From Rhodobacteraceae bacterium KLH11 (GTDB taxonomy: Bacteria; Pseudomonadota; Alphaproteobacteria; Rhodobacterales; Rhodobacteraceae), in the NCBI GenBank assembly GCA_000158135.1, contig DS999532.1:572618-636617 (forward strand): a DNA stretch of 64,000 bases, given 5' to 3'. The translations under genes were made by a program, and so were the position numbers. Below, piece by piece: positions 6,944 to 43,775 of this stretch (the stretch's first letter is position 1; each line of letters starts with the position of its first letter). The notes under the pieces are model-generated. The model was given only the letters and a program-made list of their open reading frames with translations, was not told where the DNA came from and made no database searches.

Positions 6944-6944
6944 G

Positions 6945-11130: not shown

Positions 11131-11133
11131 CTG

Positions 11134-15269: not shown

Positions 15270-15276
15270 GCCCGCG

Positions 15277-21130: not shown

Positions 21131-22021
21131 ATGAAAATTACCTTCCGACAGGTTGATGCATTCCGAACCGTGGTGTCCACGGGCACGGTAACCGAGGCGG
21201 CGGCCATGCTGGGCATTTCACAACCCGCTGTCAGCCGTCTGATCTCTGATCTGGAGGCCGAGGTGGGGTTTGCGCTGTTCGAACGCTCGGGGCGGGTCCT
21301 CGTGCCAACGGATGAGGCGCGGCTACTGGTGCAAGAAGTGCGTCAGGTCGTCAGCGGGATGGAACATATCAAGCAAGCGGCGCATGCGATCGGTCACTTT
21401 GGACATGCGCGGCTGAGGCTGGTGACAACGCCCTCCTTTGCCACGCAACTGGCACCGGACCTGATCAGCGCGTTTGCCGCGGCCTGCCCCGAAGCGATGG
21501 CGCAACTGGAGTTCGAGGCCAATGACGATTCCGTTGAATGGCTGGTCTCTCAGAACTTTGATTTCGGAATAACCTCCAACATTCCATCCAACCCGTCCTT
21601 TGACAGCCTGATACTCTCGGACGATGATGTGTATTGCGTTATTCCCAAAGGGCATCGGCTGGAGAAAAAAACCATCATTCAGGCGCGCGATCTGGAGGAT
21701 GAAAGCTTTGTCTCATACATGAGCTCATCCCGGTTCCGTTTCGAAATTGACCGCTTTTTCAGCGCCAAATCGGTACCGCGGAGCATGAAATACGAGACCA
21801 GAACAACTGACGGAATTTGCCGACTGGTGTCGCGGAACCTTGGCGTTTCGATCATAGGCATGCCCAAGGGGCATCTGGAAGCGCCGCGCGGATGTGCTGT
21901 GTTGCCGTTCGCTGCGCCGCTGAGCTTTCGAACTGTGCTGTTCTGGTCAAAGAACAAGCCACTTTCATCCGTTGCAAAGGTCTTTCTGGGCATCGCCAAG
22001 GATATGCTTAACCCCGGTTGA
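21131..22021 (+). CDS. LysR-family transcriptional regulator
   Basis: 296 residues, HTH at about 4-63 (FRQVDAFRTVVSTGTVTEAAAMLGISQPAVSRLISDLE) and effector domain. Not a close relative of the two LysR proteins earlier in the window. ATG at 21131 places the HTH at the usual distance; a TTG start 17 codons upstream would add a non-conserved tail. Its 3' end overlaps tail-to-tail by 14 bases with the ThDP decarboxylase beta gene, whose operon it probably regulates. Confidence 0.88.
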   Translation: MKITFRQVDAFRTVVSTGTVTEAAAMLGISQPAVSRLISDLEAEVGFALFERSGRVLVPTDEARLLVQEVRQVVSGMEHIKQAAHAIGHFGHARLRLVTTPSFATQLAPDLISAFAAACPEAMAQLEFEANDDSVEWLVSQNFDFGITSNIPSNPSFDSLILSDDDVYCVIPKGHRLEKKTIIQARDLEDESFVSYMSSSRFRFEIDRFFSAKSVPRSMKYETRTTDGICRLVSRNLGVSIIGMPKGHLEAPRGCAVLPFAAPLSFRTVLFWSKNKPLSSVAKVFLGIAKDMLNPG

Positions 22022-22580
22022 GGGCTGCCCGGAATGTCTGCCGGGCCTGCGCGCTGTGGATGTAATCATAGTCACGCGGATAGCTCTGGCCCGGGCGAAC
22101 TTCCATCGATACGAATTGCGGCCCCGGGGCGGCAAGGATATAGGGCAAGGCCTCGGTAAACAGGTCCAGCTCGCCAAAGCTCTGCGATCCGGCATATCCG
22201 GCCGAGCGGGCAAACCCCACGAAATCCACCCTGTCGGCACCGGGCAGGGGATGTGCCCCGTTGACCTCGTATACCCGGTTTGCAGCCAGAAAATGATAGA
22301 GGTTGGTCACGCCCGCATTGGCGATTGTGACCAGCGCACCCAGATTCATCAGCAGGCTGCCATCCCCGTCCAGTATGATCACCCGCCGATCCGGATTGGC
22401 CAGCGCCAATCCCAGCCCATGCGAACTGGCCTGCCCCATCGCGCCGACCGCGACATAGTTCAAATCGCGTGGATTAAGCTGCAACCAGTCAAAGCAGGAC
22501 TGATAGACCGCAACAACGATATCGCGCTCGGCCACATGCGGGATCAGTGCGCTCAGCGCGGCGTCGCGATCAATAATCAT
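22008..22580 (-). CDS. ThDP-dependent decarboxylase, beta (C-terminal) subunit, ComE-like
   Basis: 190 residues, the pyrophosphate-binding half of a split 2-oxo acid decarboxylase. ThDP motif: GDG at 72-74 and the closing N101 (LAANRVYEVNG). Split alpha/beta enzymes of this size are known as sulfopyruvate decarboxylase (ComDE) and phosphonopyruvate decarboxylase relatives. Its start overlaps the alpha stop as ATGA. With the aminotransferase it could turn an amino acid into an aldehyde one carbon shorter. Cysteate to sulfoacetaldehyde is one option, but no sulfoacetaldehyde acetyltransferase is visible. Confidence 0.82.
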   Translation of the reverse strand: MIIDRDAALSALIPHVAERDIVVAVYQSCFDWLQLNPRDLNYVAVGAMGQASSHGLGLALANPDRRVIILDGDGSLLMNLGALVTIANAGVTNLYHFLAANRVYEVNGAHPLPGADRVDFVGFARSAGYAGSQSFGELDLFTEALPYILAAPGPQFVSMEVRPGQSYPRDYDYIHSAQARQTFRAALNRG

Positions 22581-23125
22581 GATGCCTCCGGGGCGCGCCC
22601 GATAAGAAAGACATGAGGGCGCGACTCGGCATAAGCCGTAGCGACGGCCTGCGGAATGTGGTCGATATCTTCCGGCTCTTCGATCAGGGAATGCTGAATC
22701 TCCATCGCATCCAGCACCGGGCCGACGATCCGCACACCGTAAGAGGCCGATTGGTCAGGGCGCAAATGCGGCTCTTTCCCCTGCAGCCCCACCATCATCA
22801 CAACAGGCAATTCGTAATCCATGCCAATGGCCCGGATCGCATTGAGGGAATCCATCAGCCCGGTCTGTTGCATCATCAACAAAGCGCGGGTGCCATTATA
22901 GGACATCGCGCCACAAATGCTGACGCCTTCATCTTCCTTGCAAATCCGAGTCAGACGAAATTCAGGATCGTTCGAGATCGGCCAAAGCAACCCGTCGCTG
23001 GTAACGATATCAGGCAATGCGACGATTTCGCGGATGCCTGCCTCTTTGATGCGCGCGATGATATGCGCGCCGGACGGATGGGCAACCACAGGCGCATCCG
23101 GCGTCGGATTTGGCGCGCTAACCAT
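22577..23125 (-). CDS. ThDP-dependent decarboxylase, alpha (N-terminal) subunit, ComD-like
   Basis: 182 residues, the pyrimidine-binding half. The activating glutamate is in ICKEDEGVSICGAM (E66), followed by GTRALLMMQQTGLMDSLNAIRAIG and LPVVMMVGLQG. Pairs with the beta subunit encoded immediately downstream to form the active site at a subunit interface. Its start overlaps the stop of the aminotransferase gene (TGATG), so the three genes form one operon. Specificity cannot be read from sequence. Confidence 0.82.
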   Translation of the reverse strand: MVSAPNPTPDAPVVAHPSGAHIIARIKEAGIREIVALPDIVTSDGLLWPISNDPEFRLTRICKEDEGVSICGAMSYNGTRALLMMQQTGLMDSLNAIRAIGMDYELPVVMMVGLQGKEPHLRPDQSASYGVRIVGPVLDAMEIQHSLIEEPEDIDHIPQAVATAYAESRPHVFLIGRAPEAS

Positions 23126-24219
23126 CAGGGGTGCCCGCTCAGAAATTCGGCTATCGCATCACGCGCGGCCCGCAGCTCATGCGGCTGGCCAATCGTTATA
23201 CGGATGTAATCCTTGTAGGCCTCTGACGCGAGGCGGCGCACGGCGATCCCTTTCTGCCGCAAAAACCGGTCAACCGCTTTGGCGGATTTATCCGGGTCGG
23301 GGAAATGGATCAGCAGAAAATTGGCCTGACTTGGGACAATCGACAAGCCCAGAGCCTGCATCTCTGACGTCAGCCAATTGCGTCCTGTCCGATTGGCATC
23401 ATACACAAACTGCGTATGCGCCCGATCTTCCAGCGCCGCAACAGCTGCTGCTGCAGAGGGCGACGCAACCGGGAAGGTCAACGCGATACGCCGCACGGTA
23501 TCAATCACATCCGGCGGCCCGAACATCCACCCGATCCGCGCACCGGCCAGCCCGTAAATCTTTGAAAATGTTCTGCACATGACAACATTTTCGGCCTCTT
23601 CCACCAGTTTATGTGTCGGCTCATAATCTGTGGCATCGACATATTCTTCGTAGGCCGCATCTATCACCAGCAGAACGTTGTCGGGCAGCGCAGCGTGCAA
23701 GCGCCTGATCTCAGAGCCGCTCAGATAGGTTCCGGCCGGGTTTTCGGGGTTGGCGAGATAGACAAGGCGCACGCGGTCCGTCAACGCCTCGATCATGCGA
23801 TCAACGGACGGGGTGAACCCATCATCGGCAACCGATACCACCTTTGCGTCATTGGCATGGGCATAATTAGGCACTTTCAGGTAGCCATTGGCGCTTCGGA
23901 CCAGTTCGGTTCCCGGCCCCAGATAGGCACGCGCCAAACGGGCCAGCAAATCATCCGAGCCCTGCCCCGTTGTGATCCAGTCCTCGTTCAGTCCAAAATG
24001 CCCGGCGATGGCGGGAACAAGAATACGGTCAGGGTTCTCCAGATACCGTTCTATGCTGCTGATGGCGGCGCGCGCCGCCATGCGGGCATGGGGGCTGGGG
24101 CCATAGACGCTTTCGTTGGAATTCAAAAGGATCGCCGCCGGTTGCCCAACGTCAACACCCACATTCAACATATGCGGCCTTATTTTCTCAATTCCCGCTT
24201 TCGCCCGGGCTATGACCAT
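23125..24219 (-). CDS. HisC-like PLP-dependent aminotransferase
   Basis: Fold-type I aminotransferase, 364 residues, histidinol-phosphate aminotransferase type: LLNSNESVYGPSP at the N-terminus, TTGQGSDDLL, LANPENPAGT, and the Schiff-base lysine K220 in CRTFSKIYGLAG. Linked to a decarboxylase rather than histidine genes, so it probably serves a catabolic transamination giving the 2-oxo acid for the ThDP enzyme. GAGGAGGGG precedes the ATG. Divergent from the DoeB-like deacylase across an AT-rich 132-base region. Confidence 0.85.
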   Translation of the reverse strand: MVIARAKAGIEKIRPHMLNVGVDVGQPAAILLNSNESVYGPSPHARMAARAAISSIERYLENPDRILVPAIAGHFGLNEDWITTGQGSDDLLARLARAYLGPGTELVRSANGYLKVPNYAHANDAKVVSVADDGFTPSVDRMIEALTDRVRLVYLANPENPAGTYLSGSEIRRLHAALPDNVLLVIDAAYEEYVDATDYEPTHKLVEEAENVVMCRTFSKIYGLAGARIGWMFGPPDVIDTVRRIALTFPVASPSAAAAVAALEDRAHTQFVYDANRTGRNWLTSEMQALGLSIVPSQANFLLIHFPDPDKSAKAVDRFLRQKGIAVRRLASEAYKDYIRITIGQPHELRAARDAIAEFLSGHP

Positions 24220-24351: not shown

Positions 24352-25374
24352 ATGACCCAAGCTCAACCACCACGACCAAGCAGATTGTGCGCATCGATCA
24401 ACCTGGATTTGCCGGGCAAACAGGTCGGGGACATAATGCTCAGGTGGTCAGACAATTCTGTCCCGCTCGGCTATCATCCTGTTCCGATCGTCAGCCTGCG
24501 CGGGTCGGATGGGCCGACCCTCCTGCTGCTGGGTGGCACGCATGGGGATGAGTTCGAAGGCCCCGCTGCCATCCTGCGATTGATCGAACGGCTGGACCTC
24601 GCAGATTTAACCGGCCAGATTATCCTGATCCCTGCACTGAACGCCCCGGCGCTGGCTGTGTCCTCGCGTGTTTCACCGCTGGACGGACAGAACCTGAACC
24701 GCGCCTTTCCGGGTGACCCTGATGGCGGGCCCACGGCGATGTTGGCACATTATGTCGAAACCGTCCTGTTCCCGCGCGTTGACGCGGTCATCGACCTGCA
24801 TTCAGGTGGAAAGGCTTCGGTGTTTGCCCCATGCGCCCTCGCTTCGCGCTGCGTCGAGGCCACCCTGACCGCAGCCAACCTTGATCTGGCCTGCGCATTC
24901 GGGGCGCCGCTGATCTGGATGCTGGGCGCGCATAACGACAACCGCTCGGTCAACGCGGCGGCGGCCCGCAGCGGCGTTCCGATGATCGCGGCCGAGTTGG
25001 GCGGTGGCGGCAACATCACGCCCGGGATCGTCGATATGACAGAAACGGGCCTGTTGCGCTGCATGTCTCATCTGGGGCTTCTGAACAAGACGGTTCCACC
25101 CCTGGCCCCACCACAACTGGTCGAGGTTACTTCGGCCTTCGACTCGCTATATGCACCAGCGAACGGGTTGTTCGACCGGCAGGTGAGTGCCGGACGAGAG
25201 GTGAAGGCCGGTGAGGTGGCAGGTCATCTGCGATTTCCCGATGATCCTGCCCGCACGGCGTTGGACTTGTCCTTTCCCAACAGCGGTTTTGTACTGGCAC
25301 ATGGAAATCGCGGCATGGTGCGCCGTGGGGATTTGCTGGCCCTTGTTGCCCAAAACGTGCCGGAAGGGCTTTGA
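24352..25374 (+). CDS. Zinc-dependent deacylase, AstE/AspA family, DoeB-like
   Basis: 340 residues, succinylglutamate desuccinylase/aspartoacylase family. Zinc ligands H64 and E67 in GGTHGDEFEGP and H150 in DLHSGG; substrate-binding NLNRAFPG at 114-121. DoeB, the ectoine-pathway N-acetyl-diaminobutyrate deacetylase, is the best-known relative of this length. It would release a free amino acid from an N-acyl precursor. Ends directly before the ALDH ATG (stop TGA, start ATG overlapping as TGAATG), so both are co-translated. The divergent aminotransferase and decarboxylase could then process the freed amino acid. Confidence 0.82.
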   Translation: MTQAQPPRPSRLCASINLDLPGKQVGDIMLRWSDNSVPLGYHPVPIVSLRGSDGPTLLLLGGTHGDEFEGPAAILRLIERLDLADLTGQIILIPALNAPALAVSSRVSPLDGQNLNRAFPGDPDGGPTAMLAHYVETVLFPRVDAVIDLHSGGKASVFAPCALASRCVEATLTAANLDLACAFGAPLIWMLGAHNDNRSVNAAAARSGVPMIAAELGGGGNITPGIVDMTETGLLRCMSHLGLLNKTVPPLAPPQLVEVTSAFDSLYAPANGLFDRQVSAGREVKAGEVAGHLRFPDDPARTALDLSFPNSGFVLAHGNRGMVRRGDLLALVAQNVPEGL

Positions 25375-26835
25375 ATGCGCATTTATGCTCCTTTTATTTC
25401 AGGTCAGGTCCTGCCGTGGCACGGCGATACCATTGCAAGCATCGACCCGGCCACCGGGGAAACATGGAGCCGGATCGCCAGATGCAGCGCCGCCGAAGCG
25501 GATGCTGCGATCCGCGATGCCGACCGCGCCTTTCGTCAAGGGCCATGGGCTGATCTTGATCCGTCAGGACGGGCCGACATGCTGGATGCGCTTGCAACAC
25601 AGCTGGAAACCCGGTGGGAAGAGCTGATTGAGGCGGAAATCCGGGACAACGGCAAACGGATCACCGAGGTACGTGGCCAATTCTCGGCACTGCATGGCTG
25701 GTATCGCCATTTCGCGGCTCAGGCGCGAAAACTCACCCCGGTTCCGCAAGACAATGCAATCGCTGGTGTCACAAGTGTCGGTCACTGGATGCCCTATGGC
25801 GTGGTGGTCGCGATCACGCCCTGGAACTCTCCGTTGATGATCCTTGCGTGGAAACTGGCCCCGGCCCTGGCGGCGGGCAATACCGTGGTGGTCAAACCCT
25901 CGGAAATGGCTTCGGCCTCGACCCTTGAATTCGCGCAACTCGCGCATGAGGCGGGTTTACCGCCCGGCGTGCTGAACGTGGTAACCGGGTTCGGTCACGA
26001 GGTTGGCGAAGCGCTGGTGCGCCACCCGCTGACGCGCAAAGTGACCTTTACCGGGTCAGATGCCGGAGGCCGCAAAGTGGCCATGGCGGCATCGGACCGG
26101 GTGATACCAACCACGCTTGAACTTGGCGGCAAGTCACCTCAGATCGTGTTTGCGGATTGCGACCCCGAAACCACCGTAAATGGCGTATTGTCCGGCATCT
26201 TTCTCTCCAACGGTCAGACTTGCGTTGCCGGATCGCGGCTGATCGTGGAACATTCGATCAAGGATGCATTTGTCGCGCGCCTGACCGAGCGCGCCCGGAG
26301 CCTGAAGGTCGGAGACCCGATGGACCCGGCCACCCATATCGGCCCGCTGGCCAATGAACCGCATCTGCGCAAGGTGATCGCGATGATCGAACAGGCCAGA
26401 TCAGACGGGGCCGATTGCCTGCTTGATGGCAGTGCACTGGTGCAAGGGCGCGATGGCTTTTATGTCGGGCCAACGATCTTTGATCAGGTCACCCAGACCA
26501 TGCAAATCTGGCGGGAAGAAATATTCGGGCCGGTACTGTGCGTTGCCACGTTCGATAGCGAAGACAAGGCCGTCACCCTTGCCAATGACAGCGAATACGG
26601 TCTGGCGGCAGGCATCTGGACCAGAGATGGCGCCAAAGGGGCGCGGATCGCCGAAAAGGTGCTCGCGGGGACGGTCTACATCAATCACTACAGAAGCGTG
26701 GATCCGGGTAGCCCCATCGGTGGCATCAAGTCATCCGGATACGGGCGCGAGTTGGGACCAGACGCAATCAGAGACTTCCTGCAGGTCAAATCAGTCTGGA
26801 CCGGCACCACCCCCACACCCGATCCCTTCCAGTGA
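25375..26835 (+). CDS. NAD(P)-dependent aldehyde dehydrogenase
   Basis: 486 residues with intact catalytic set: N151 in PWN, K174 in VKPSE, E249 in LELGG and C283 in GQTCVAGSR. Co-transcribed with the DoeB-like deacylase with no gap. Likely oxidises the aldehyde made by the divergent ThDP decarboxylase. Shares layout and the CVAGSR motif with the ALDH at 4430. A weak stem-loop follows at 26869-26891. Confidence 0.9.
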   Translation: MRIYAPFISGQVLPWHGDTIASIDPATGETWSRIARCSAAEADAAIRDADRAFRQGPWADLDPSGRADMLDALATQLETRWEELIEAEIRDNGKRITEVRGQFSALHGWYRHFAAQARKLTPVPQDNAIAGVTSVGHWMPYGVVVAITPWNSPLMILAWKLAPALAAGNTVVVKPSEMASASTLEFAQLAHEAGLPPGVLNVVTGFGHEVGEALVRHPLTRKVTFTGSDAGGRKVAMAASDRVIPTTLELGGKSPQIVFADCDPETTVNGVLSGIFLSNGQTCVAGSRLIVEHSIKDAFVARLTERARSLKVGDPMDPATHIGPLANEPHLRKVIAMIEQARSDGADCLLDGSALVQGRDGFYVGPTIFDQVTQTMQIWREEIFGPVLCVATFDSEDKAVTLANDSEYGLAAGIWTRDGAKGARIAEKVLAGTVYINHYRSVDPGSPIGGIKSSGYGRELGPDAIRDFLQVKSVWTGTTPTPDPFQ

Positions 26836-27128: not shown

Positions 27129-28514
27129 ATGCGCAAGCCGATTGAAAACGACCCCTTCGCCAGCCCCAAGGGCAACTTCCGTGGGCACGATCAGCAATCG
27201 GTCTGGACCCAGCAGCCCGATCCGGAACTGACCGAAATAGGCCCCGGCACCCCATGCGGCGAATATCTGCGCCGGTTCTGGATGCCGGTGGCGATGACAG
27301 ATCAAGTCACTGACCTGCCTTATCGCCTGCGCATTCTTGGCGAAGATCTGGTGCTGTTTCGGGAAAAGAAGGAAGGCAAGCTGGGCCTGACGCATCTGCA
27401 TTGCTGCCACCGCAACATGAGCCTTGAGTTCGGCATCGTGGAAGACGGCGGTATTCGGTGCTCTTATCACGGCTGGAAATACGGGCTGGACGGGACCATT
27501 CTGGAAACCCCCTGCGAACCACCCGCCAGTCAGGTGAAGAAGAAGGCCTGTCTGGGGGCCTATCCGGTGATCGAGTATAAAGGGTTGGCCTTTGCCTATA
27601 TGGGACCTGCCCGGGAACAACCTCCGTTCCCGGTTATGGATACGTTCGATGAAGACGGGGATGAGCTGGTGCCCTATCTGATCAAATCGCCCTGCAACTG
27701 GCTGCAGGTGATGGAGAACGCATGGGACCCGTTTCATGTGGTCTATCTGCATACGCTGGCCGTGCGCAGCCAGTTCATCGATGCCTTTGCCGAAATGCCG
27801 ATGATCGAATTTCATGACAGCGCGACCGGCGATTTCTATACCAATGTCAGGCGGGTGGGTGACATCGTCTGGGTACGTATCCATGATCACATGCTGCCCT
27901 CATTCACGCAAAATGGCGGGCATTTTCCGGTACCGGATGGTTCGCGATACTTCGGACGCTGCGGGTTGTCGCGCTGGATCACTCCGATCGATGACACCAA
28001 CACGATGGTCATTGCGTGGCGGCATTTCCGCGATGCCGCGGCCAATGATGATCCCAAGGGGTTAACCGACAAAAGCAAGGTCGGCTATGGTATGACCGAT
28101 TTCTACGGTCAGGACCCGGACCGCCCTTATGAGAGGCGACAACGTGATCCGGGCGACTATGATGCCTGGGTCAGCCAGGGCCCCAGGAACATCCACGCAC
28201 GAGAGAATCTCAGCTTTACCGATCGCGGCGTTGCCAAGGCGCGGCGGTTATTGCGCAATGCCATCCGTGCCTTGCAAAAAGGCAAACGCCCGCCACAGCC
28301 AGGTGACGCTTTCCCCGATCGGGAAATTCCGACCTACGCTGGGGATACAATGCTGCGTGTTCCATTGCAGGAAGGGCGCGATGATGGTGCCGTGCTCAAG
28401 GAAATCTCGCATCAGGTGGCCGAAATCTACAAATCCGGTGACCATTTACAAGGCGATGCACGCAAGGCCTTTCTTGTTGAAGCCTTGAAAGAATATGAGG
28501 CAAGCTGGCGATGA
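27129..28514 (+). CDS. Rieske [2Fe-2S] ring-hydroxylating oxygenase, large subunit
   Basis: 461 residues, phthalate dioxygenase-like size. Rieske ligands C92 and H94 (HCCHRNMSLEFG) and C111 and H114 (CSYHGW); mononuclear iron site N197-x2-D200-x2-H203-x4-H208 (NAWDPFHVVYLH). It would hydroxylate or dealkylate a ring or N/O-methyl compound using electrons from a reductase. No reductase or ferredoxin gene is visible in the operon, so one must be borrowed. First gene of a cluster with two unknown paralogues, a DUF1116 protein and an amidase. The first Cys-x-His has Cys in the x position, an unusual but harmless feature. Confidence 0.87.
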   Translation: MRKPIENDPFASPKGNFRGHDQQSVWTQQPDPELTEIGPGTPCGEYLRRFWMPVAMTDQVTDLPYRLRILGEDLVLFREKKEGKLGLTHLHCCHRNMSLEFGIVEDGGIRCSYHGWKYGLDGTILETPCEPPASQVKKKACLGAYPVIEYKGLAFAYMGPAREQPPFPVMDTFDEDGDELVPYLIKSPCNWLQVMENAWDPFHVVYLHTLAVRSQFIDAFAEMPMIEFHDSATGDFYTNVRRVGDIVWVRIHDHMLPSFTQNGGHFPVPDGSRYFGRCGLSRWITPIDDTNTMVIAWRHFRDAAANDDPKGLTDKSKVGYGMTDFYGQDPDRPYERRQRDPGDYDAWVSQGPRNIHARENLSFTDRGVAKARRLLRNAIRALQKGKRPPQPGDAFPDREIPTYAGDTMLRVPLQEGRDDGAVLKEISHQVAEIYKSGDHLQGDARKAFLVEALKEYEASWR

Positions 28515-28538
28515 GCATCACCCGAGTGCTAAGGGATT

Positions 28539-28606
28539 GGGGGCTCTGCCCCCGCCGTGCCAGAGGCACGGCCCCCCCGGGATATTTTTGGCCAGATGAA
28601 GCAGGG
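28539..28606. repeat. Double-hairpin intergenic element
   Basis: Two perfect stem-loops in tandem: GGGGGC-TCT-GCCCCC (28539-28553) and GCCGTGCC-AGA-GGCACGGC (28554-28572), followed by CCCGGGATATTTTTGG with a five-T run. The second part resembles a stretch I recall between many Rhodobacteraceae genes. It sits inside an operon, between the Rieske gene and the next gene, where it could act as a partial terminator on the plus strand. Confidence 0.55.
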
Positions 28607-28614
28607 GAGCACAG

Positions 28615-29247
28615 GTGTTGACGCGTATTCCACATAATCCGGGCCGCGTAGAATGGTCGGGTGAGAACCCGGGCATCTATCTGAAACAGGATCCTGCGCA
28701 AGAAAGCTATGATACGCTGGCTTTGTTTTTCCGGGTGGTCTTGTCCCCCTACGGGCGCGGGAATGCTGCACTTGTTCTGGGTGCCCCGGATACGTCGCAA
28801 GGCTGGCCGCATGTGCCCAATCTGATCATGACCGATAACCAGCGCATGATGCGTTGGATCATTGATGGCTGGGTGACAAAAATGCCCACTTTCATCGGCA
28901 AGGCCGGGTTGGATGCCATGACATGGCTGGACTGTGACAGCGTCGAAAAGCGGCCGGGCGACCTGAGGTCGCGCTATTCCGAAACCCTGCGCGGTTCGGG
29001 CGTGACGCTTGAGATGATCTGGCGGGATATGGGGCCGCCCTTGCCGGTTGAGGTGACCAAGGAGAACTCTGCCACCAAGGCGCATGAAATGTACTCGGTC
29101 TTTCTTGAGGCGAAAACAGCGCAGGTCCTGATCAACGGCACACCCCTGGCCGGGCGGGTCGCCGATCGGCAGTTCTTTGGCCGCAAGATGAGCACCGCCT
29201 TTCTGGCCTTCTCTGAAACCTGGGTGACACCGCAGGAGGATCTGTGA
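28615..29247 (+). CDS. Unknown protein, tandem paralogue A
   Basis: 210 residues, family not recognised. Predicted soluble: no signal peptide or membrane segment. Shares with the next gene product a WSGENPGIYLK/WTGENPGILLK opening, LALFFRVVLSP/MALFFRVAWSP, a P-N-ILSDN-like centre, RYSETLRGSG/RYTETISGEG, an A-Q-VLINGTPL/A-Q-IIVNGHSL segment and the ending TAFLAFSETWV/TAFLYFSETWI. They are clear tandem paralogues and may form a heterodimer. GTG start at 28615 preceded by GGGGAG. Position between a Rieske oxygenase and a DUF1116 protein implies an accessory or catalytic role in that pathway; no function is claimed. Confidence 0.8.
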   Translation: MLTRIPHNPGRVEWSGENPGIYLKQDPAQESYDTLALFFRVVLSPYGRGNAALVLGAPDTSQGWPHVPNLIMTDNQRMMRWIIDGWVTKMPTFIGKAGLDAMTWLDCDSVEKRPGDLRSRYSETLRGSGVTLEMIWRDMGPPLPVEVTKENSATKAHEMYSVFLEAKTAQVLINGTPLAGRVADRQFFGRKMSTAFLAFSETWVTPQEDL

Positions 29248-29873
29248 TGCCGCTGAACGAGCCGATCACCCCCGGTACGGTCGACTGGACGGGCGAGAAC
29301 CCGGGCATTCTGCTGAAAGGCGAGGATGGCAATTTCACAGCGATGGCGCTGTTCTTTCGCGTCGCCTGGTCGCCGGTCGGGCAAGGTCAGGTGTTGCTGC
29401 TTTATGGAACACCCGGTCAGGTGGAGGGGCCAGAGCATGCGCCGAATGTGATCCTCAGCGACAATCCGGAGCTGACGGCTTTTCTCAAGAAGAACTTCAT
29501 CAGCAAACTGGCCGCCTTTGCCAATGCCCCGGCTTTTGCCACCCTGCCCGAGCTTGGCGCGCAGGCGGTGCGCAGTTCCGGCGATCCGATGGGTCACAGA
29601 TATACCGAAACAATCTCGGGCGAGGGATTGGTGGTGGAACTGGTCTGGGAAGGGTTTGAGCCCCCCCGCGCGCTGGAACTGTCGCCCCATGAAGTCGCCT
29701 CGGGTGAGCAGAACATGTTTTCGCTTCTGGTGCCTGCACATTCTGCGCAGATCATCGTGAATGGTCATTCGTTGCCCGGCAAGCTTGGCACGCGGGTGCA
29801 AGCCGGGTACGAAACGACAACTGCGTTCCTGTATTTCTCGGAAACCTGGATCATTCCGCCGGAGACCCCTTGA
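29247..29873 (+). CDS. Unknown protein, tandem paralogue B
   Basis: 208 residues, family not recognised, paralogous to the preceding product along its full length. Soluble, with alternating hydrophobic patterns that suggest a beta-rich fold. AGGAGGA six bases before the ATG at 29247 decides the start; that ATG overlaps the upstream stop (TGATG), and its own stop overlaps the DUF1116 start in the same way, so all are translationally coupled. The upstream GTG three bases earlier is too close to the ribosome site. Confidence 0.8.
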   Translation: MPLNEPITPGTVDWTGENPGILLKGEDGNFTAMALFFRVAWSPVGQGQVLLLYGTPGQVEGPEHAPNVILSDNPELTAFLKKNFISKLAAFANAPAFATLPELGAQAVRSSGDPMGHRYTETISGEGLVVELVWEGFEPPRALELSPHEVASGEQNMFSLLVPAHSAQIIVNGHSLPGKLGTRVQAGYETTTAFLYFSETWIIPPETP

Positions 29874-31063
29874 TGCTGCACCCATCCGATCAACTTGCCT
29901 TTGACCGCGCGATGGTCACACAACCGGTCTGGAACCGCTTTAACACTGCAGCAGATGCGCTGGGGTTGGCGGAAAACGTGCTGTTGCACGCGGGCCCGGC
30001 CTTTGCCGATCCCGATCTGATCACCGCGCCGATCCTGAACTCGGCCTGCGTTGCTGCCGTCTGGCAGGGGTTGGCAAAGGATTTCGATCAGGCCGAGGCC
30101 ATGATCCGGGCGAGCGAGGTCACGCTGAAACCGGCGCAGGATCATGACGTGGTCACCCCGCTGGCGGCCGTCGTCTCGGCCGATATGCCACTGCACACGA
30201 TCTATGACGCATGGCGCGGACAGCAGCGGGTATTCGCGCCGATCAACGCAGGCAACCGCCCTGCAATGCGGCTGGGGCTGCGGTCCGAGGCGGTGCTGGA
30301 TCATATCCGCTGGTTGAACACCCGCTTTCTGGATGTGCTGGAGGGCGGTCTTGCCGAGGGGATCGCACTGGTGCCACTGGCAGTGATTGGCCTGACCGGT
30401 GGCGATGATTGCCACGGGCGCACGCCGGTTGCCACCAGCGCGTTGGTGGCAGAGTTGAAGGACCGCACGCCGAACGGCATCACGGACGAAAACGCGCTGG
30501 AGTTCATGGCCAGTTCGCCCTCGTTGTTCCTCAATCTGTGGATGGCCGCGACCAAGATCATGATGAAGCTGGCCGAAGGTGTTGAAGGATCGAGTTTCGT
30601 CACCGCTGCGGGGGGCAATGGCCGCGAGACCGGAATTCAGGTTTCCGGTCTGCCGGGCCGGTGGTTCACCATCCCGGCCAGTCCACCCAAAGGCAAATTT
30701 GATGTCGATCTGCCCGAAGACCGGGCGCTGGGTGCCATCGGCGACAGCGCTGTTGTCGATGCTTTCGGACTGGGCGCCATGGCGATTGAGCTGAGCCCTG
30801 AGCAGAAGAAAGGCCTGGGGGCTTTCATGCCGGAAGATTCCGCCGCGCGAACTGCGAGCCTGTCAGTAGGGACACATCCTTATTTCAAGGCGCTGGACCT
30901 GCGGCTTGGCAGCACTGCACGCGGTGCCGTCGCGCAAGGGTCCGGCCCGATGATCGGCCTGGGCATCCTTGATCGTCTGGGTCAGGCCGGACGGCTGGGC
31001 GGTGGCATCTATGACATGCCCGTCACCCCCTTTGCCGACGCCATGAAGGCGCTGGAGGGATGA
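29873..31063 (+). CDS. DUF1116 (YlbE/AllG-like) family protein
   Basis: 396 residues. Aligns by eye with E. coli YlbE/AllG: LLHAGP early, a GACVGA-like SACVAAVWQGLAKDFDQA segment, a GDxxH-like GGDDCHGR, SPSLFLNLWMAATK, GNGRETGIQVSGLPGRWFT and GDSAVVDAFGLGA. AllG is one of three proteins of the oxamate carbamoyltransferase system of allantoin catabolism (with FdrA/AllF and AllH). No FdrA or DUF2877 partner is present here; instead two unknown 208-210-residue proteins precede it. A carbamoyl- or ureido-type intermediate in this pathway is therefore possible but unproven. Ends by overlapping the amidase start (ATGA). Confidence 0.75.
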   Translation: MLHPSDQLAFDRAMVTQPVWNRFNTAADALGLAENVLLHAGPAFADPDLITAPILNSACVAAVWQGLAKDFDQAEAMIRASEVTLKPAQDHDVVTPLAAVVSADMPLHTIYDAWRGQQRVFAPINAGNRPAMRLGLRSEAVLDHIRWLNTRFLDVLEGGLAEGIALVPLAVIGLTGGDDCHGRTPVATSALVAELKDRTPNGITDENALEFMASSPSLFLNLWMAATKIMMKLAEGVEGSSFVTAAGGNGRETGIQVSGLPGRWFTIPASPPKGKFDVDLPEDRALGAIGDSAVVDAFGLGAMAIELSPEQKKGLGAFMPEDSAARTASLSVGTHPYFKALDLRLGSTARGAVAQGSGPMIGLGILDRLGQAGRLGGGIYDMPVTPFADAMKALEG

Positions 31064-32346
31064 GCGATCTGACCCGGCTCGGCGCTGGTGCGCTTGCACA
31101 GCTGATCCGGTCGGGTACGGTCAAGCCATCGGCGGTAATGGCGGCGCATCTGGACCGTATCGCATTACGCGAGCCCGTGGTGGGGGCGTTCCAGCACCTC
31201 GACGCGGACAATGCCATGGAGCGTGCTTACGCCGCCGATGCACTCCCCTCTGGCGGCCTGCTTCATGGCGTACCTTTTGTGATCAAAGACATTATTGACA
31301 CGCAAGATATGCCCACGGGTTGGGGGAGTGATCTGTATGCAACCCGACGTCCGGACCGGAACGCAGCTTGCCTACAAGCGTTTCTGGAGGCCGGTGCAAT
31401 TCCGATAGGCAAGACGGTTACCACCGAATTTGCTTATTTCAGGCCGGGCAAAACGAGGAACCCGGCAAACCCCGGCCATACTCCGGGCGGATCCTCATCC
31501 GGTTCCGCAGCGGCCGTGGCGGATTTCATGGCACCGCTTGGATTTGGCTCGCAAACCGCCGCCTCGCTGATCCGCCCCGCAGCCTATTGCGGTGTCTGCG
31601 GGTTCAAACCGACCACCGGGCGCTATGATCTGGCGGGTGTTATGGGCCTGTCTGGCAGCCTCGACACGTTGGGGGTATTGGCGCGAGATCCCGGTGATCT
31701 GGCCCTCGCTGATGCGGTTCTGCGGGGAACCGGACTCCCCTCAACCCCCGATTTCGAAGACGCCCTGCCCCGGATCAGCCTGATGCGCGGGCCGCATTGG
31801 GCCGAGGGCTCGGTCGAGATGCGCGATACCTGCACCCGCGCTCTGGCTGCCATTGCTGCAACGGGTGCCGAAACAGGGGAAATCGCCCACCCACCGGTCT
31901 TTGCCCACCTGACCCAGGCCCAGATCATCGTCATGGGATATGAAGCCGCGCGTCTGCGTCAGGCAGAATATGCGGTTGGCGTTCCCGGCATCAGCCAGCA
32001 TTTCCACGACCTGATAGCCCAGGGGCTTGAGGTCAGCGATGCAGACTACAACGCGGCACTGTCCACGCGTGACCGGGCCAGCAGCATGCTGGACCAGATG
32101 TTTCGCGATGTGGATGCCCTTTTGGTGCCGTCGGCACCGGGGCCTGCACCCAAAGGTCTGGCAGCCACAGGTGATCCTTTGTTCTCGCGCATGTGGAACT
32201 TGCTGCAGGTGCCTTCGATTGCACTGCCCTTTGGAACAGATGCCAACGGGTTGCCGCTGGGCTTTCAACTGATCGGGCAACGTGGCAAAGACGACCGCCT
32301 GCTTGATATCGCGCAGTGGCTGCGCGGGCATCTGAAGCCCGTATGA
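31060..32346 (+). CDS. Amidase signature family hydrolase
   Basis: 428 residues. The Ser-cisSer-Lys triad is readable: K76 in GVPFVIKDIID, the Gly/Ser-rich loop GGSSSGSAAAVA (143-154) with the cis-Ser, and the nucleophile S169 in GSQTAASLIRPAAYCG. The usual TGGS before the nucleophile is TAAS here. It hydrolyses a C-N bond of an amide, carbamate or ureido compound. Last gene of the Rieske-paralogue-DUF1116 operon, overlapping the preceding stop by four bases. In combination the set could open a ring and then remove nitrogen from an N-heterocycle. Confidence 0.87.
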   Translation: MSDLTRLGAGALAQLIRSGTVKPSAVMAAHLDRIALREPVVGAFQHLDADNAMERAYAADALPSGGLLHGVPFVIKDIIDTQDMPTGWGSDLYATRRPDRNAACLQAFLEAGAIPIGKTVTTEFAYFRPGKTRNPANPGHTPGGSSSGSAAAVADFMAPLGFGSQTAASLIRPAAYCGVCGFKPTTGRYDLAGVMGLSGSLDTLGVLARDPGDLALADAVLRGTGLPSTPDFEDALPRISLMRGPHWAEGSVEMRDTCTRALAAIAATGAETGEIAHPPVFAHLTQAQIIVMGYEAARLRQAEYAVGVPGISQHFHDLIAQGLEVSDADYNAALSTRDRASSMLDQMFRDVDALLVPSAPGPAPKGLAATGDPLFSRMWNLLQVPSIALPFGTDANGLPLGFQLIGQRGKDDRLLDIAQWLRGHLKPV

Positions 32347-35594: not shown

Positions 35595-37109
35595 TCACGC
35601 AGCTTTCTCAGCCTTCCGCTTTTTGATCATCTTCGAGATCATCGGATAGCTAACCAGACCAACCGCGATCAGGATGCAAACCAGCGAGATCGGGCGCTCA
35701 AGGAAGGTCATCGGGTCACCCTGGCTCGAAATCAGCGACTGGCGCATCGAGCGTTCGGTCAGCGGACCCAGAACAATGGCCAGAACCGCAGGGGCAACCG
35801 GGTAGTTCAGCTTGCGCAGCAGGTATCCCGCAATACCCAGACCCAGCATCAGGTAGGTATCAAACATCCGGTCAGTGGTGGCGAACACGCCGACGACACA
35901 CAGGATGAAGATGATGGGGGCCAGAACACTGAACGGCATCGCCAGAACACGGATGAAAACCGGGATCAAAGCAATATTCAGTACAACGGTCATGAAGTTT
36001 GCCACATACATCGAGCCGATCAGGCCCCAGACAAAATCCGGGCTTTCGGTGAACAGCAGCGGACCCGGACGCAGACCCCAGATGATCATACCACCCAGCA
36101 GGATAGCCGTGGTGGGCGATCCGGGGATACCCAGCGTGATCATCGGCAGCATCGAACCGGTCGACGCGGCGTTGTTGGCCGCCTCGGGTGCCGCCACGCC
36201 GGCGACATTGCCCTTGCCGAACGTATCACCGTCTTTCGAGAAGGTTTTGGCCAGACCATAAGACATCAGCGAAGCAGGTGTCGCCCCGGCCGCCGGAAGC
36301 GTCCCGACGAAGAAACCCAGAACCGAACCAACCGTCGAAACCGGCAGGTACTTTTTGACCTGCGCAAGGTTGTTGATGATCTTCTTGAAGCCCACTTCGA
36401 CCTTGTGCATCTGGATCTTGCCCTTGGTATGCTCAAGCGTCCAGATCATCTCGCCGATACCATAGATACCGATGGCCAGAACCAGGAACGGAATGCCGCG
36501 CTGGAACTCTACAAGTCCGCCAAAGATCAGACGGGGTTGTCCCGAGATGATGTCAAAGCCGACGGCTGCCAGCACCAGGCCAACAAGGATCGAGAAGATG
36601 GTCTTGGGGATATCATCGCCGCCAAGTCCAATGAAGGTCGCGAAGGCAAGCAGCATCAGGGCGAATTCTTCCTGAGGGCCAAACTTCAAGGCAAACGCCG
36701 CAAGTGGCGGGGCAAAGCCGGTGAACAGGATCACCGAGATGGTACCGCCGATGAAGGAGGCAATGGCCGCGGCCATCAGCGCCTGGTCGGCTCTGCCTGA
36801 CTGGGCCATTGGGCGGCCGTCAAACACGGTTGCCACCGCAGTCGAGGCCCCTGGGATGCCCAGTGTGATAGAGCTTACCGCGCCGCCATACATGGCACCG
36901 TAGTAAAGCGCGGCCAGAAAGATGATCGCGGCGGTGGGCGGCACCAGAAAGGTAACCGGCAGAAGGATGGCAACGCCGTTTACAGACCCGAGGCCCGGCA
37001 TTGCACCGATGAACAATCCGGCAAAACAGCCCAGAAAGATCATCATCAAGTTAAGCGGCTCGAAGGACTGGAGTAGTCCGGCGCCCAGCAAGCTGATTAT
37101 GGAGTCCAT
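35595..37109 (-). CDS. tctA: Tripartite tricarboxylate transporter, TctA large membrane subunit
   Basis: 504 residues, about twelve hydrophobic segments, standard TctA length. Family signature stretches include GSVNGVAILLPVTFLVPPTAAIIFLAALYYGAMYGG split over two helices, and the paired glycine/proline loops GTLPAAGATPASLMSYG and GIPGSPTTAILLGG. It forms the secondary-transport channel of the TTT system driven by ion gradients. Encoded after TctB in a binding protein-first operon next to the oxalate genes, so a dicarboxylate such as oxalate is a candidate substrate. Confidence 0.92.
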   Translation of the reverse strand: MDSIISLLGAGLLQSFEPLNLMMIFLGCFAGLFIGAMPGLGSVNGVAILLPVTFLVPPTAAIIFLAALYYGAMYGGAVSSITLGIPGASTAVATVFDGRPMAQSGRADQALMAAAIASFIGGTISVILFTGFAPPLAAFALKFGPQEEFALMLLAFATFIGLGGDDIPKTIFSILVGLVLAAVGFDIISGQPRLIFGGLVEFQRGIPFLVLAIGIYGIGEMIWTLEHTKGKIQMHKVEVGFKKIINNLAQVKKYLPVSTVGSVLGFFVGTLPAAGATPASLMSYGLAKTFSKDGDTFGKGNVAGVAAPEAANNAASTGSMLPMITLGIPGSPTTAILLGGMIIWGLRPGPLLFTESPDFVWGLIGSMYVANFMTVVLNIALIPVFIRVLAMPFSVLAPIIFILCVVGVFATTDRMFDTYLMLGLGIAGYLLRKLNYPVAPAVLAIVLGPLTERSMRQSLISSQGDPMTFLERPISLVCILIAVGLVSYPMISKMIKKRKAEKAA

Positions 37110-37145
37110 GAGTATGTTCCCTGTTGGATAGCTGGCGGTTCGGCG

Positions 37146-37673
37146 TTACGACATGATCGCATAGCGGAAGTCGTCGATATGCAGGAAGATGCCTTCAAAG
37201 AAGGGCCATCCGCGCGGCAGGTATTTGTTAAGCGCGACCTCAAACAGCATATAGATCGCCACGGGCATTCCGAATACGACAGCCAGCGTCAAACCCCATT
37301 TGTGCCTGCCGATACCCTTCACATAGAAAAGCAAGAACAGCATCATCGAGAAGTACAGGCCGATGATGTTGGTTAAAACCAGTAGAAAGAAGATGGCAGC
37401 GATTGTGATCCCGACCATGAAGATCGTCTCGGGATCAATATACGGGTCAAGGTTACGGGATTCCGCGGTCACACCGCGAAACCAACGAGCGATAGTCCAG
37501 AGAGATGTCAGTGCCATACCGGCAGACAGCCAGAATGGCCACATACCGGCACCGGGGCCTCTTCCTTCAAGCCAGCCGATGGTTAGATCATCGTTCAGGA
37601 CGTTCCACATCAGACCAAAGGAGGCAAGAAGCATGACTACCCCCATGATCAACTCAGCTGTACGAACAGTCAT
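37146..37673 (-). CDS. tctB: Tripartite tricarboxylate transporter, TctB small membrane subunit
   Basis: 175 residues, four predicted membrane helices (about 8-25, 40-58, 82-108, 118-140). GGAGG lies before the ATG at 37673, which was chosen over a start ten codons upstream. Poorly conserved family, identified mainly by size, helix number and position between TctC and TctA. It is separated from TctC by 145 bases that hold a stem-loop. Confidence 0.85.
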   Translation of the reverse strand: MTVRTAELIMGVVMLLASFGLMWNVLNDDLTIGWLEGRGPGAGMWPFWLSAGMALTSLWTIARWFRGVTAESRNLDPYIDPETIFMVGITIAAIFFLLVLTNIIGLYFSMMLFLLFYVKGIGRHKWGLTLAVVFGMPVAIYMLFEVALNKYLPRGWPFFEGIFLHIDDFRYAIMS

Positions 37674-37776
37674 GTTTATCCTCCGCATCCGGGCTGTCAC
37701 CACCTGGACTGCTATTTAGGTTCAATCTTTGTGGCGAAACCGGGTTCTGGCCAAGTCGGGCCAAATTTGGTGACCC

Positions 37777-37806
37777 CTCTGGGCAGGCGGAACTGCCCGC
37801 CCAGAG
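37777..37806 (-). promoter_or_regulatory. Intercistronic stem-loop between tctC and tctB
   Basis: CTCTGGGC (37777-37784) pairs with GCCCAGAG (37799-37806), with a nested GGGCAG/CTGCCC alternative. It lies 12 bases after the binding-protein stop on the minus strand and lacks a T-run. This mirrors the hairpin after the tauA-like gene and probably keeps binding-protein transcript levels above those of the membrane subunits. Confidence 0.55.
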
Positions 37807-37818
37807 AAGATTATTGCC

Positions 37819-38802
37819 TTACTTCGAAGTGATGGCGTCTGCGCCAACAGTTTCGATCAGCTCAACGTGACGCTGAAGCTGTGCATTGTGGAACTCGGCC
37901 AGTTCGTCGCCCGAAATCCACTCGCTGCAGGTCAGACCATCGGATTCGCAATAGTCCTGCCATTCCTGCGAGTTGAACAGCTCTTCGAACAGATTCTGGT
38001 ACCAGGCCACAGCCTCAGGATCCATGCCCGCCGGGCCAGAGATCGAACGCTGCATGTAGTATTCGATATCCACACCCAGTTCCTTGGCGGTCGGGACATC
38101 CTCGAACGGAGCCGTGCGCTCACCGTTGAACTGAACCAGCGGCTTCGAATTGCCCGCACGCCAGAACTCCATCTGCTCAGACGGGTTGTTCACGGTCGAG
38201 TCGATCTGGTTGCCCACAAGGTTCTTCGCCACTGTGCCACCACCCGGGAACGGGATATAGGTCACGTTGTAGCCAAGTTCCTTTTCCATCATGGCAGTCA
38301 GGATCGAATCTTCCTGTCCTGAACCAGTGCCGCCCACTTTCCACGTTCCGTCAGAGCCCTGAACAGTTGCAACGTAGCTGTCGAGGTCAGTGATATCATC
38401 GCGGTCGGTGTTGACCCACAGCAGGAACGTGTCCATCGCCATACGCCCGATCGGGGCGAAGGAAGTGACATCAATCTCCAGCTCATCCTGAATGATCGGC
38501 GTCGTGTAGAAGCTGTTCAGAGCAACCAGCAGCGTGTGGTTGTCACCTTCCTTGCCCTTGATGTAGGACAGTGCTTCTGCACCCGAACCACCCGGCTTGT
38601 TGATCGGAATAAACGGTCTGGGGCTCAGGCCCTTCTTCTGGATCAGGCCCTGTAGCAGACGCGCGATCTGGTCAGCACCACCACCGGTTCCTGCCATGAT
38701 GATGAACTCAACCGGTTTACGCGGTTGCCATTCCGCCATCGCAGCAGGCGCAGTGATCGCCAGAGCGGCGGCCGTCATCGTCAGAGTTTTCCAAATCTTC
38801 AT
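37819..38802 (-). CDS. tctC: Tripartite tricarboxylate transporter, TctC periplasmic binding protein
   Basis: 327 residues with signal peptide MKIWKTLTMTAAALAITAPAAMA (cleavage near 23). Mature part follows the Bug/TctC pattern: PVEFIIMAGTGGGADQIARLLQ, PINKPGGSGAEALSYI, WKVGGTGSGQEDS, PFPGGGTVAKNLVGNQID. GGGAGGA stands before the ATG at 38802; a longer reading has no signal peptide. First gene of the tct operon. Ligand possibly oxalate or another short dicarboxylate, inferred from the neighbours. Confidence 0.9.
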   Translation of the reverse strand: MKIWKTLTMTAAALAITAPAAMAEWQPRKPVEFIIMAGTGGGADQIARLLQGLIQKKGLSPRPFIPINKPGGSGAEALSYIKGKEGDNHTLLVALNSFYTTPIIQDELEIDVTSFAPIGRMAMDTFLLWVNTDRDDITDLDSYVATVQGSDGTWKVGGTGSGQEDSILTAMMEKELGYNVTYIPFPGGGTVAKNLVGNQIDSTVNNPSEQMEFWRAGNSKPLVQFNGERTAPFEDVPTAKELGVDIEYYMQRSISGPAGMDPEAVAWYQNLFEELFNSQEWQDYCESDGLTCSEWISGDELAEFHNAQLQRHVELIETVGADAITSK

Positions 38803-38947
38803 TTTTTTCCTCCCTAGGTACAGCCATGATTGGCTTTCTTCGGTACGTGTTTCCGATGGCTTACGCATTCTCCTCGTGAGATTGCCGCCTGTCACCGGAA
38901 CGTATTACGTAGTTTGCTTCATCCTCCTTCTTCATTCATCTTAAGTT

Positions 38948-39811
38948 TTAGTGAACCATCACAACGGGTATCTCGGCTTCGGCAACAATTGTCGCAGAGT
39001 TGCCTCCAAGCAGGGATTCCCGTTCGTAGCTTTCGTGATATGCGCCCATGATCAGCAGATCGACGCCGATATCCGAGCACTTGTCCAGCAGCTGGCGGCC
39101 CACATTGCCCCGAACATCGAACTGGACCACATCAGACGAAACCCCGCGACGCGCCAGATAGTCCTGAAACTCTTCGGCGGTGGCCGCATGTTCAGAATGG
39201 CCACCGGTCAAAACCGTGACAGAGTCAGCACTTTCGATCAATGGCATCGCCATCGCAACGGCGCGCGAAGCCTCCAGCGATCCGTTCCAGCCGATCGCCA
39301 CATGACGCCCGAGATCAGTCGCCACCTCGGTCGAGGGCGGGCACACAAGAACCGGGCGACCTGACGAGAACAACGCCGATTTCAAGGTGTTGAACCCCAG
39401 ATCTTCTTCCTTGCTGGGTTTCGGGACACAAATCAGATCGGACAGTCGGCCATAGTGGCGCACCGCATCAACCTGCTTGCCCTCGTATTCGTAGAACTTC
39501 GCTGTTGGCTTGTTCAACTCGGGATCTTGTTCGCTGACGCCGTGTTTGGCGGCGTCAGCAGAGAATTTATCGTGCACGAAATTTTCTTCAGTATCAGCAC
39601 TTTGCTGCGTTGCCGCCTCAATCTGCTTGCGAAGAAAATTAGGGATCACAACCCCATAAGGCATCATGTCTTCGGCCTTGGGATGGCAATGCACGACCTT
39701 GATATGCGCGCTGAAGCGTTTGGCCAGCGCCGCGGCGTGGGCAAAGAGCGCAGGCCCCCTGCCGTCATCGCGCGCAGGCATCATGATGGTATGAAGCGTG
39801 CTGCTGGCCAT
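38948..39811 (-). CDS. Universal stress protein, tandem UspA
   Basis: 287 residues with two Usp-like halves: HTIMMPARDDGRGPALFAHA at the start and HVAIGWNGSLEASRAV from about 170. The second half ends in LLIMGAYHESYERESLLGGNSATIVAEAEIPVVMVH, containing the G-x2-H-x9-GS(T/N)-type nucleotide-binding loop; the first half lacks it. Two bases behind the formate-THF ligase gene and so the last member of the oxalate operon. A role in stress or acid adaptation during oxalate use is possible but not shown. Confidence 0.85.
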   Translation of the reverse strand: MASSTLHTIMMPARDDGRGPALFAHAAALAKRFSAHIKVVHCHPKAEDMMPYGVVIPNFLRKQIEAATQQSADTEENFVHDKFSADAAKHGVSEQDPELNKPTAKFYEYEGKQVDAVRHYGRLSDLICVPKPSKEEDLGFNTLKSALFSSGRPVLVCPPSTEVATDLGRHVAIGWNGSLEASRAVAMAMPLIESADSVTVLTGGHSEHAATAEEFQDYLARRGVSSDVVQFDVRGNVGRQLLDKCSDIGVDLLIMGAYHESYERESLLGGNSATIVAEAEIPVVMVH

Positions 39812-39813
39812 GA

Positions 39814-41481: not shown

Positions 41482-41510
41482 AGGATTTTTCCAAAGTTAA
41501 GAAGTTACGA

Positions 41511-42428
41511 TTACTTGCCAAGCGTAGCGCCGGGCTCCAACCCAACGGACGCTGCCCATTCTGAGGCGGCAACTTTGCCTTCTCCGGCTGGGCGGACTCT
41601 CTTGATCAGGATACGGCCACCGACACACTGGACCGAGACGCCCTCATCGGTGATCTCACGAACCCGTCCCGATATGCCGTCACCGGGTACAGGGACACAG
41701 TCGAACACACCCAGTTCGGCCCCATCCAGCGTGGTCCATGCCCCCGGAGCAGGGTTGGTGCCGCGGATCAGATTGTAAACCTGATTGACGGGGCGATGCC
41801 ATTCGATCCGTGCATGGTTCTTGTTGCAGCGCCGTTCATAGGTCGCTTCGCTTTCATCCGGGACAATGCGCGGGGGATTGCCATCGCGGTACAGGTCGCA
41901 GACCGTCAGAACACTGTCGACCGCATGAGGGTAAATCTTCTTGAAATACAGGTCGATGACAGTGTCATTCGGCCCGATCTCGCATTCCCATTGCAGCAGG
42001 CTGTCGCCCTCGTCCAGACCATCTGACGGGTAGAACCAGGAATAGCCCGATTTGGTCGATCCCATGATGATCGGCCAGTTCACCGCCGAAGGTCCGCGAT
42101 GCAGCGGCAGAAGCGATGGGTGGAAACAAATTGATCCATGGGTTGGTGTGTCACGTGCCGCTTCGGGCACAAAGACATTCACAAAAGCCATGACCATCAG
42201 GTCAGCATTAAAGCTGGCCAGCAGATCCAGTGCTTCCTGATCATCGAAATTGGCAGGCTGATGGACCGGCAGGCCCTTTTCCAGCGCAAATTCCTTGATC
42301 GGATCAACCGGTTTACCGTCTTTGTCGGGCTCACAATAGACAGCGACAACTTCATCGGTTCCCGTTTCCAAGAGCTTGGCAAGCACATCTTTCCCGAAGG
42401 CCTGCTGCCCCATGACGATCAAACGCAT
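41511..42428 (-). CDS. Stand-alone formyltransferase, 10-formyl-THF hydrolase domain type
   Basis: 305 residues. It resembles the N-terminal hydrolase domain of 10-formyl-THF dehydrogenase (ALDH1L1) more than Fmt: start MRLIVMGQQAFGKDV, then CFHPSLLPLHRGPSAVNW with catalytic H103, and SDGLDEGDSLLQ with D139, matching H106 and D142 of that enzyme, plus IRGTNPAPGAWT. A C-terminal formyltransferase-like domain follows (about 210-305) but no dehydrogenase domain. Set between frc and fhs. It may deformylate 10-formyl-THF, or move the formyl group between formyl-CoA, formate and THF; the second activity would be new and is speculation. Confidence 0.8.
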   Translation of the reverse strand: MRLIVMGQQAFGKDVLAKLLETGTDEVVAVYCEPDKDGKPVDPIKEFALEKGLPVHQPANFDDQEALDLLASFNADLMVMAFVNVFVPEAARDTPTHGSICFHPSLLPLHRGPSAVNWPIIMGSTKSGYSWFYPSDGLDEGDSLLQWECEIGPNDTVIDLYFKKIYPHAVDSVLTVCDLYRDGNPPRIVPDESEATYERRCNKNHARIEWHRPVNQVYNLIRGTNPAPGAWTTLDGAELGVFDCVPVPGDGISGRVREITDEGVSVQCVGGRILIKRVRPAGEGKVAASEWAASVGLEPGATLGK

Positions 42429-42483
42429 ATTTTCCTCCCTTTGAGCGGGGTGCTGCCTGTCGCAGCACCGCCGTCAAATCTGG

Positions 42484-43758: not shown

Positions 43759-43775
43759 TTCCTATCCCTCCCAAT

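Follow-up and report, generated by a model that had tools for sequence, protein, structure and literature searches.

In Escherichia coli, oxamate carbamoyltransferase is formed by AllF, AllG and AllH (PMC11326118), and complete allFGH sets are carried by nitrifiers (PMC12625717). A second point of comparison is the breakdown of riboflavin and lumichrome (the Lum pathway), which combines a Rieske oxygenase and a xanthine-oxidase-like enzyme with a two-subunit thiamine pyrophosphate (TPP) decarboxylase; LumK/LumL decarboxylate a heterocyclic acid in this pathway, and two-subunit TPP decarboxylases are described as rare (PMC12746152). All three sources are cited from excerpts. Here we describe an operon at 27129..32346 of a 64,000-nucleotide (nt) stretch of the Rhodobacteraceae bacterium KLH11 genome (contig DS999532.1, positions 572,618 to 636,617; the window), which encodes a Rieske oxygenase, two tandem paralogues designated A and B, a homologue of AllG (DUF1116, PF06545) and an amidase. 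The AllG homologue seems to work without its usual partners FdrA (AllF) and AllH and falls in a clade that almost always adjoins an oxidative hydroxylase of the Rieske or xanthine dehydrogenase (XDH) type; the conserved, uncharacterised gene set of marine bacteria to which it belongs probably degrades a nitrogen-containing compound. The open-access papers searched yielded no account of this operon, in keeping with the initial annotation, which had called it undescribed, and open reading frame (ORF) positions and profile matches bear out the five genes placed there (Table 1).

What the window shares with AllFGH of E. coli is the PF06545 protein itself. Among FdrA-linked sequences and the clade of the window protein (clade II, see below), 33 positions are at least 90% conserved in both, and the window AllG keeps 32 of them, with Glu65 replaced by Gln; no published AllG catalytic residues were found, nor any description of a separate role for the AllG subunit of oxamate carbamoyltransferase. 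The two systems differ in clade, in the oxidative hydroxylase that stands in front of the window gene, and in partners. The window genome (G000) has a single AllG and no match to AllH (DUF2877), which exceeds the cut-off in 15 of the 385 genomes of the class. Full-length FdrA was not found in it either: there are only partial matches of 26-28% identity in frames of 301 amino acids (aa), one of them the window's own sucD-like gene, and the FdrA-bearing controls G487 and G503 match at 39% and 48% identity across nearly the whole length. A strong match to catabolic carbamate kinase is likewise lacking, the best TIGR00746 score in G000 being 24 bits, compared with 351 bits in control G487, itself just below the cut-off of 358.25. 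The earlier description of an AllG-family protein lacking FdrA and AllH is thus upheld.

Phylogenetic analysis of 55 PF06545 sequences resolves two clades (support 100/99), and a quick tree of 60 rows is concordant (30 + 30, SH-aLRT 99). Clade I (29 rows) contains all 17 FdrA-linked rows but is not purely FdrA-linked, as its 12 other rows show no FdrA in the examined stretch, which for some is only 3.6 kb. Clade II (26 rows) contains the window AllG and comprises all 18 Rieske-linked rows, seven XDH-linked rows and one other. AllG ORFs with a matched part below 330 aa, 33 loci that were near-copies or re-fetched places, and then five (55 rows) or six (60 rows) duplicates were excluded, and the survey places left out of the trees include G558:C16, G465:C73:106440, G536:C47 and fragments in G404, G578 and G589; locus L035 was assigned to the Rieske group by hand. 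We also observed that the FdrA super-clade AllG genes of L144-L150, L154, L155 and L195 have no FdrA or AllH match nearby and stand in varied contexts.

The hydroxylase linkage appears as well in a survey of the class that was based on PF06545 and independent of A or the hydroxylase. AllG is present in 37 of the 385 genomes, and a hydroxylase lies in the fetched stretch of 12 of the 13 full-length loci assigned to clade II, three of them with a Rieske gene (G000, G586 and G669) and nine with an XDH-type large subunit (G016, G466, G516, G583, G608, G666, G683, G704 and G737; in G583, G666 and G737 the two smaller XDH subunits are not among the matches). FdrA is seen in none of these 13 loci. 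The XDH-linked L158 groups with the Rieske-linked rows (99/93), apart from the other XDH rows; therefore the hydroxylase type seems to have switched while AllG stayed. A partnerless clade associated with oxidative hydroxylases makes a separate role of AllG directly testable and warns against annotating clade II proteins as subunits of oxamate carbamoyltransferase.

The operon is real and conserved more than chance would allow. Scanning genome contigs with A as the query yielded 31 loci, mostly from the Roseobacter group (including named Ruegeria and Leisingera strains) together with metagenome-assembled genomes titled Rhizobiaceae, Alphaproteobacteria and Gammaproteobacteria. At the thresholds applied, A is found in all 31 loci and the Rieske gene, B and AllG in 30 each, and the four stand together as one block in 29; some of the misses are contig ends. 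Where both genes pass the threshold, Rieske and A are adjacent in 30/30 cases, A and B in 30/30, B and AllG in 29/30, and AllG and the amidase in 17/17; the B-AllG exception is L019, in which AllG is broken into two frames (1230-2618), and the block of L027 is interrupted by a contig end. The AstE-like, aldehyde dehydrogenase (ALDH) and divergent TPP and HisC-like genes are also part of the conserved block (counts in Table 1), for which the interval 27129..32346 is too narrow, and the amidase is its least constant member. Since named Ruegeria and Leisingera strains hold the operon, the pathway is genetically approachable.

The genes from 28615 on had been regarded as one translationally coupled unit, and their overlaps are indeed short: with ATG starts, A/B and B/AllG overlap by 1 nt each and AllG/amidase by 4 nt, and upstream GTG or TTG starts would bring the first two to 4 nt each. 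The unit has to be extended to the Rieske gene, however, because a 4-nt overlap joins that gene to A in 29 of the 31 loci (a count with a mild bias, as the A starts were chosen by expected length). The exceptions are L030, where a different start was picked, and L005, where a 99-nt gap holds a GC-rich palindromic stretch, recognised by eye, at the position matching the window's repeat; in the window itself, Rieske and A are separated by a 100-nt gap with a dispersed repeat inside.

Functional hints come from the surroundings of other clade II genes. The Azospirillum and Caballeronia XDH-type sets resemble the window in having a hydroxylase, an amidase and a clade II AllG without FdrA; they differ in that a molybdenum hydroxylase replaces the Rieske enzyme, SRPBCC and HpxZ genes are present, and A and B are lacking. 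The HpxZ gene of Caballeronia is an equivalog match (185 bits, cut-off 135), and that of Azospirillum is so named by annotation. In L192, an NCS2 permease and a HIUase-family gene lie 5-6 kb from clade II AllG; two more genes there resemble PuuE and PucG, and Pfam gave polysaccharide deacetylase for the first. Because clade II adjoins hydroxylases, and in some cases HpxZ or purine genes, a pathway for an N-heterocycle or a ureide is plausible, as the initial annotation had supposed. Carbamoyl transfer from ureidomalonate, the next homologue of oxalurate, would yield malonamate. Outside clade II, L167 (1587-9228) and L151 carry a ring-opening amidohydrolase gene beside FdrA and AllG, and L167 has carbamate kinase, DUF2877 and an NCS2 permease as well, a hint that relatives of AllFGH may likewise follow a barbiturase-like ring opening.

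Gene content, order, conservation, motifs, the AllG clade and the hydroxylase linkage are read directly from the sequences, and from these we infer the reactions, their order and the substrate class. The operon may quite possibly serve the aerobic catabolism of a nitrogen-containing compound, probably of N-heterocyclic or ureide type. A part resembling an amino acid or a 2-oxo acid would be handled by the aminotransferase, the split TPP decarboxylase, ALDH and the AstE-like deacylase; hydroxylation of the ring would fall to the Rieske oxygenase, served by a reductase whose gene lies elsewhere; A and B, a putative pair of decarboxylase/aldolase-type barrels, might act on the product of this oxidation; the AllG homologue, unaided by FdrA and AllH, would cleave an acyl-urea or amide-type bond; and the malonamidase-like amidase, where present, could free ammonia from the resulting amic acid. 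This explanation is favoured by the fixed gene block, the split of clade II from the FdrA-linked rows, the hydroxylase linkage and the HpxZ and purine genes near clade II AllG, and also by the Lum pathway, with which the locus has in common a Rieske oxygenase, a TPP decarboxylase of two subunits and hydrolases of the urea/imidamide kind that act on an N-heterocycle. Peculiar to the Lum pathway are a P450, a catechol dioxygenase, a xanthine oxidase-like enzyme and a Rieske system of four proteins, and neither AllG nor A/B appears in the excerpts of its description (PMC12746152); the likeness is a parallel and not pathway homology. More tentatively, the second, ancient AllG branch may be a stand-alone enzyme that dispenses with FdrA and AllH and completes the breakdown of N-heterocycles begun by a Rieske or molybdenum hydroxylase, to which the Roseobacter version would add an undescribed step by a heteropair of acetoacetate decarboxylase (ADC)-like barrels; a marine nitrogen compound would then be degraded aerobically by a new catabolic route.

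Several observations weigh against this proposal. The majority of the tree's Rieske-linked rows were gathered by way of A, which is a bias, and in one clade II locus (L156; G578 in the survey) no hydroxylase lies within 13 kb. By tblastn, 14 of the 31 loci show no sign of the amidase, 10 of them with more than 2 kb of sequence after AllG, and ALDH is missing in 11, partly through contig ends. An amidohydrolase gene, the candidate ring-opener, occurs in 9 of the 11 XDH-type loci and is absent from the window operon. Distant loci also vary in composition: Variovorax L034 has a Rieske gene, one A-like gene, an ATP-binding cassette (ABC) transporter, AllG, an amidase and a reductase, and Paracoccus L035 has a Rieske gene of another type, a reductase, an epimerase-family gene, one A-like gene, AllG, a VOC protein, an amidase and an ABC transporter; no TPP or HisC homologue was seen in either stretch.

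The paralogues A and B share 35% identity across 203 aa (E 2e-48) and represent a protein family without a Pfam or NCBIfam model: neither has a Pfam match above cut-off or any NCBIfam match. Their predicted models seem to resemble ADC-type barrels (VIA-align of Foldseek's own list). Members of the ADC superfamily (ADC, aldolase-dehydratase and MppR) have 244-266 aa compared with 210 aa; the Pfam ADC profile gives no row for A or B at E up to 1, and six relatives scanned at E up to 0.1 likewise show none. With A as the query, Foldseek finds no match in the PDB at E up to 0.001 and a PDB sequence search finds nothing at E up to 1. Lys24, considered as a possible counterpart of the Schiff-base lysine of ADC, is conserved in 54 of the 56 rows of an alignment of A and B (56 of the 67 listed frames), with Ser by eye in distant relatives. 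The A family occurs in 40 of the 385 alphaproteobacterial genomes of the class survey and in 2 of 398 genomes of a phylum survey; its tree was built from 40 hand-chosen sequences.

Given how closely A follows the Rieske gene, A and B might serve the Rieske step, whether as subunits or carriers or by directly converting its product; AllG would then be an independent downstream enzyme. The constant adjacency and the 4-nt overlap favour this explanation, as do L069 and L070, in which A-family genes, a Rieske gene and an ABC transporter form a single run of genes and AllG is not adjacent, and Variovorax L034, in which A follows the Rieske gene and AllG is 3.4 kb away. We nevertheless consider it somewhat unlikely, for many A-family singles have no Rieske gene in the examined stretch, and in G669 and G586 the order is Rieske-AllG-amidase with no A or B between. 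In G586, where a reductase and ALDH precede these three genes, A and B lie about 12 kb from AllG, at the end of a run that also includes an ABC transporter and a second Rieske gene. The G669 assembly has no A or B but is no proof that AllG works without them, because by comparison with G586 its contig ends at the expected A/B site and the second Rieske gene is missing too; G016 serves for that argument instead.

It is less likely still that the operon degrades a histidine-like or other small amino acid through the corresponding X-acetate (e.g. imidazole-acetate), the likeness to ureide pathways being incidental. The HisC-like aminotransferase does score near the hisC cut-off, the split TPP decarboxylase is of the kind that acts on 3-substituted pyruvates, and ALDH and a deacylase belong to the same block; formamidase-like genes, with scores far below the cut-off of 500, occur in L153 (46 bits) and in L069 (75 bits), and L152 has a type III glutamine synthetase near AllG (1317-5659; 666 bits, cut-off 470). 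The absence of TPP and HisC homologues from the Variovorax and Paracoccus stretches argues the other way, and nothing on imidazole acetate was found in the open-access papers searched. The window genome contains a second hisC, above the cut-off at 314 bits, and the TPP subunits fall below both equivalog cut-offs of sulfopyruvate decarboxylase (ComDE). Glutamine-synthetase-like genes were also noticed close to AllG in L029 (13841-15190) and L145 (8768-10276).

The initial annotation had suggested that A and B may take the place of FdrA and AllH, in which case A-B-AllG would be a carbamoyltransferase of new composition making carbamoyl phosphate, but A and B are probably not the partners of AllG. 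FdrA has a succinyl-CoA-synthetase-like fold, at odds with the ADC-type barrel models. Although B adjoins AllG in nearly every locus with both, the window genome lacks AllH and full-length FdrA, and E. coli AllG is fully active only with AllF and AllH (PMC11326118), we judge the substitution improbable: none of the clade's 11 XDH-type loci (L158-L162, L164, L166 and L190-L193) carries A/B beside its AllG, and these include that of G016 (a single contig, listed as 100% complete, with AllG beside XDH genes, outside the 16 genomes in which AllH was matched, and with no A-family match and only a partial 30% FdrA match); A/B stand without an adjacent AllG in L069 and L070, and some genomes that lack AllG altogether have A-family singles (e.g. 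G557 and G554); carbamate-kinase-like matches in the window genome do not exceed 24 bits; and the need for substitute partners is less because partial E. coli sets keep some activity, allGH or allFG alone restoring 16% and 7% of wild-type oxamate (PMC11326118).

Table 1. Genes of the conserved block in the window, and the repeat between them (cut-offs in brackets where they apply; n/31, number of loci with the gene).
Feature	Position	Strand	Evidence
TPPc, C-terminal-half subunit of two-subunit TPP decarboxylase	22011..22580	-	phosphonopyruvate decarboxylase 107 bits (cut-off 312.5); sulfopyruvate decarboxylase beta 96.8 bits (cut-off 221.5); 25/31
TPPn, N-terminal-half subunit of TPP decarboxylase	22580..23125	-	sulfopyruvate decarboxylase alpha 86 bits (cut-off 147.95); 25/31
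HisC-like aminotransferase, divergent from operon	23125..24219	-	TIGR01141 256.7 bits (cut-off 276.55); 26/31
AstE/AspA-family deacylase, DoeB-like	24352..25374	+	PF24827 126.8 bits; ectoine_eutE/DoeB 186.5 bits (cut-off 402.7); 24/31
Aldehyde dehydrogenase (ALDH)	25375..26835	+	PF00171 541.8 bits; 20/31
Rieske non-heme iron oxygenase	27129..28514	+	PF00355 59 bits; CxH..CxxH from residue 92, DxxHxxxxH from residue 200; nearest solved chain 7fhr (putative phthalate 4,5-dioxygenase alpha), E 1.6e-42
Dispersed repeat core between Rieske and A	28574..28601	+	45 genome copies with at most 3 mismatches; reversed control 0
Paralogue A, putative small beta-barrel family without profile	28615..29247	+	
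Paralogue B, family of A	29247..29873	+	
AllG/DUF1116 homologue, hydroxylase-linked clade	29873..31063	+	PF06545 200.9 bits (cut-off 27); solved relative 3clq, E 1.6e-36; trees
Amidase-signature hydrolase	31060..32346	+	PF01425 229.6 bits; nearest solved relative malonamidase E2 (1obj, E 2.5e-57); motifs; 17/31

The motifs of the Rieske protein mark its cluster and its iron site, and the Lys-Ser-Ser motifs of the amidase signature family are present in the amidase (IKD at 75, GGSSSGS at 143 and GSQTAAS at 163). After the operon, at 35595-46432, lie genes that by eye resemble an oxalate/formyl-CoA degradation cluster; a link between oxalate and the operon was rejected, as R. conchae has other genes after the amidase. 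Upstream, positions 1-16194 hold ABC transporter, luciferase-like, MttB-like and dimethylglycine-dehydrogenase-like genes, again recognised by eye, suggesting the use of N- or S-compounds.

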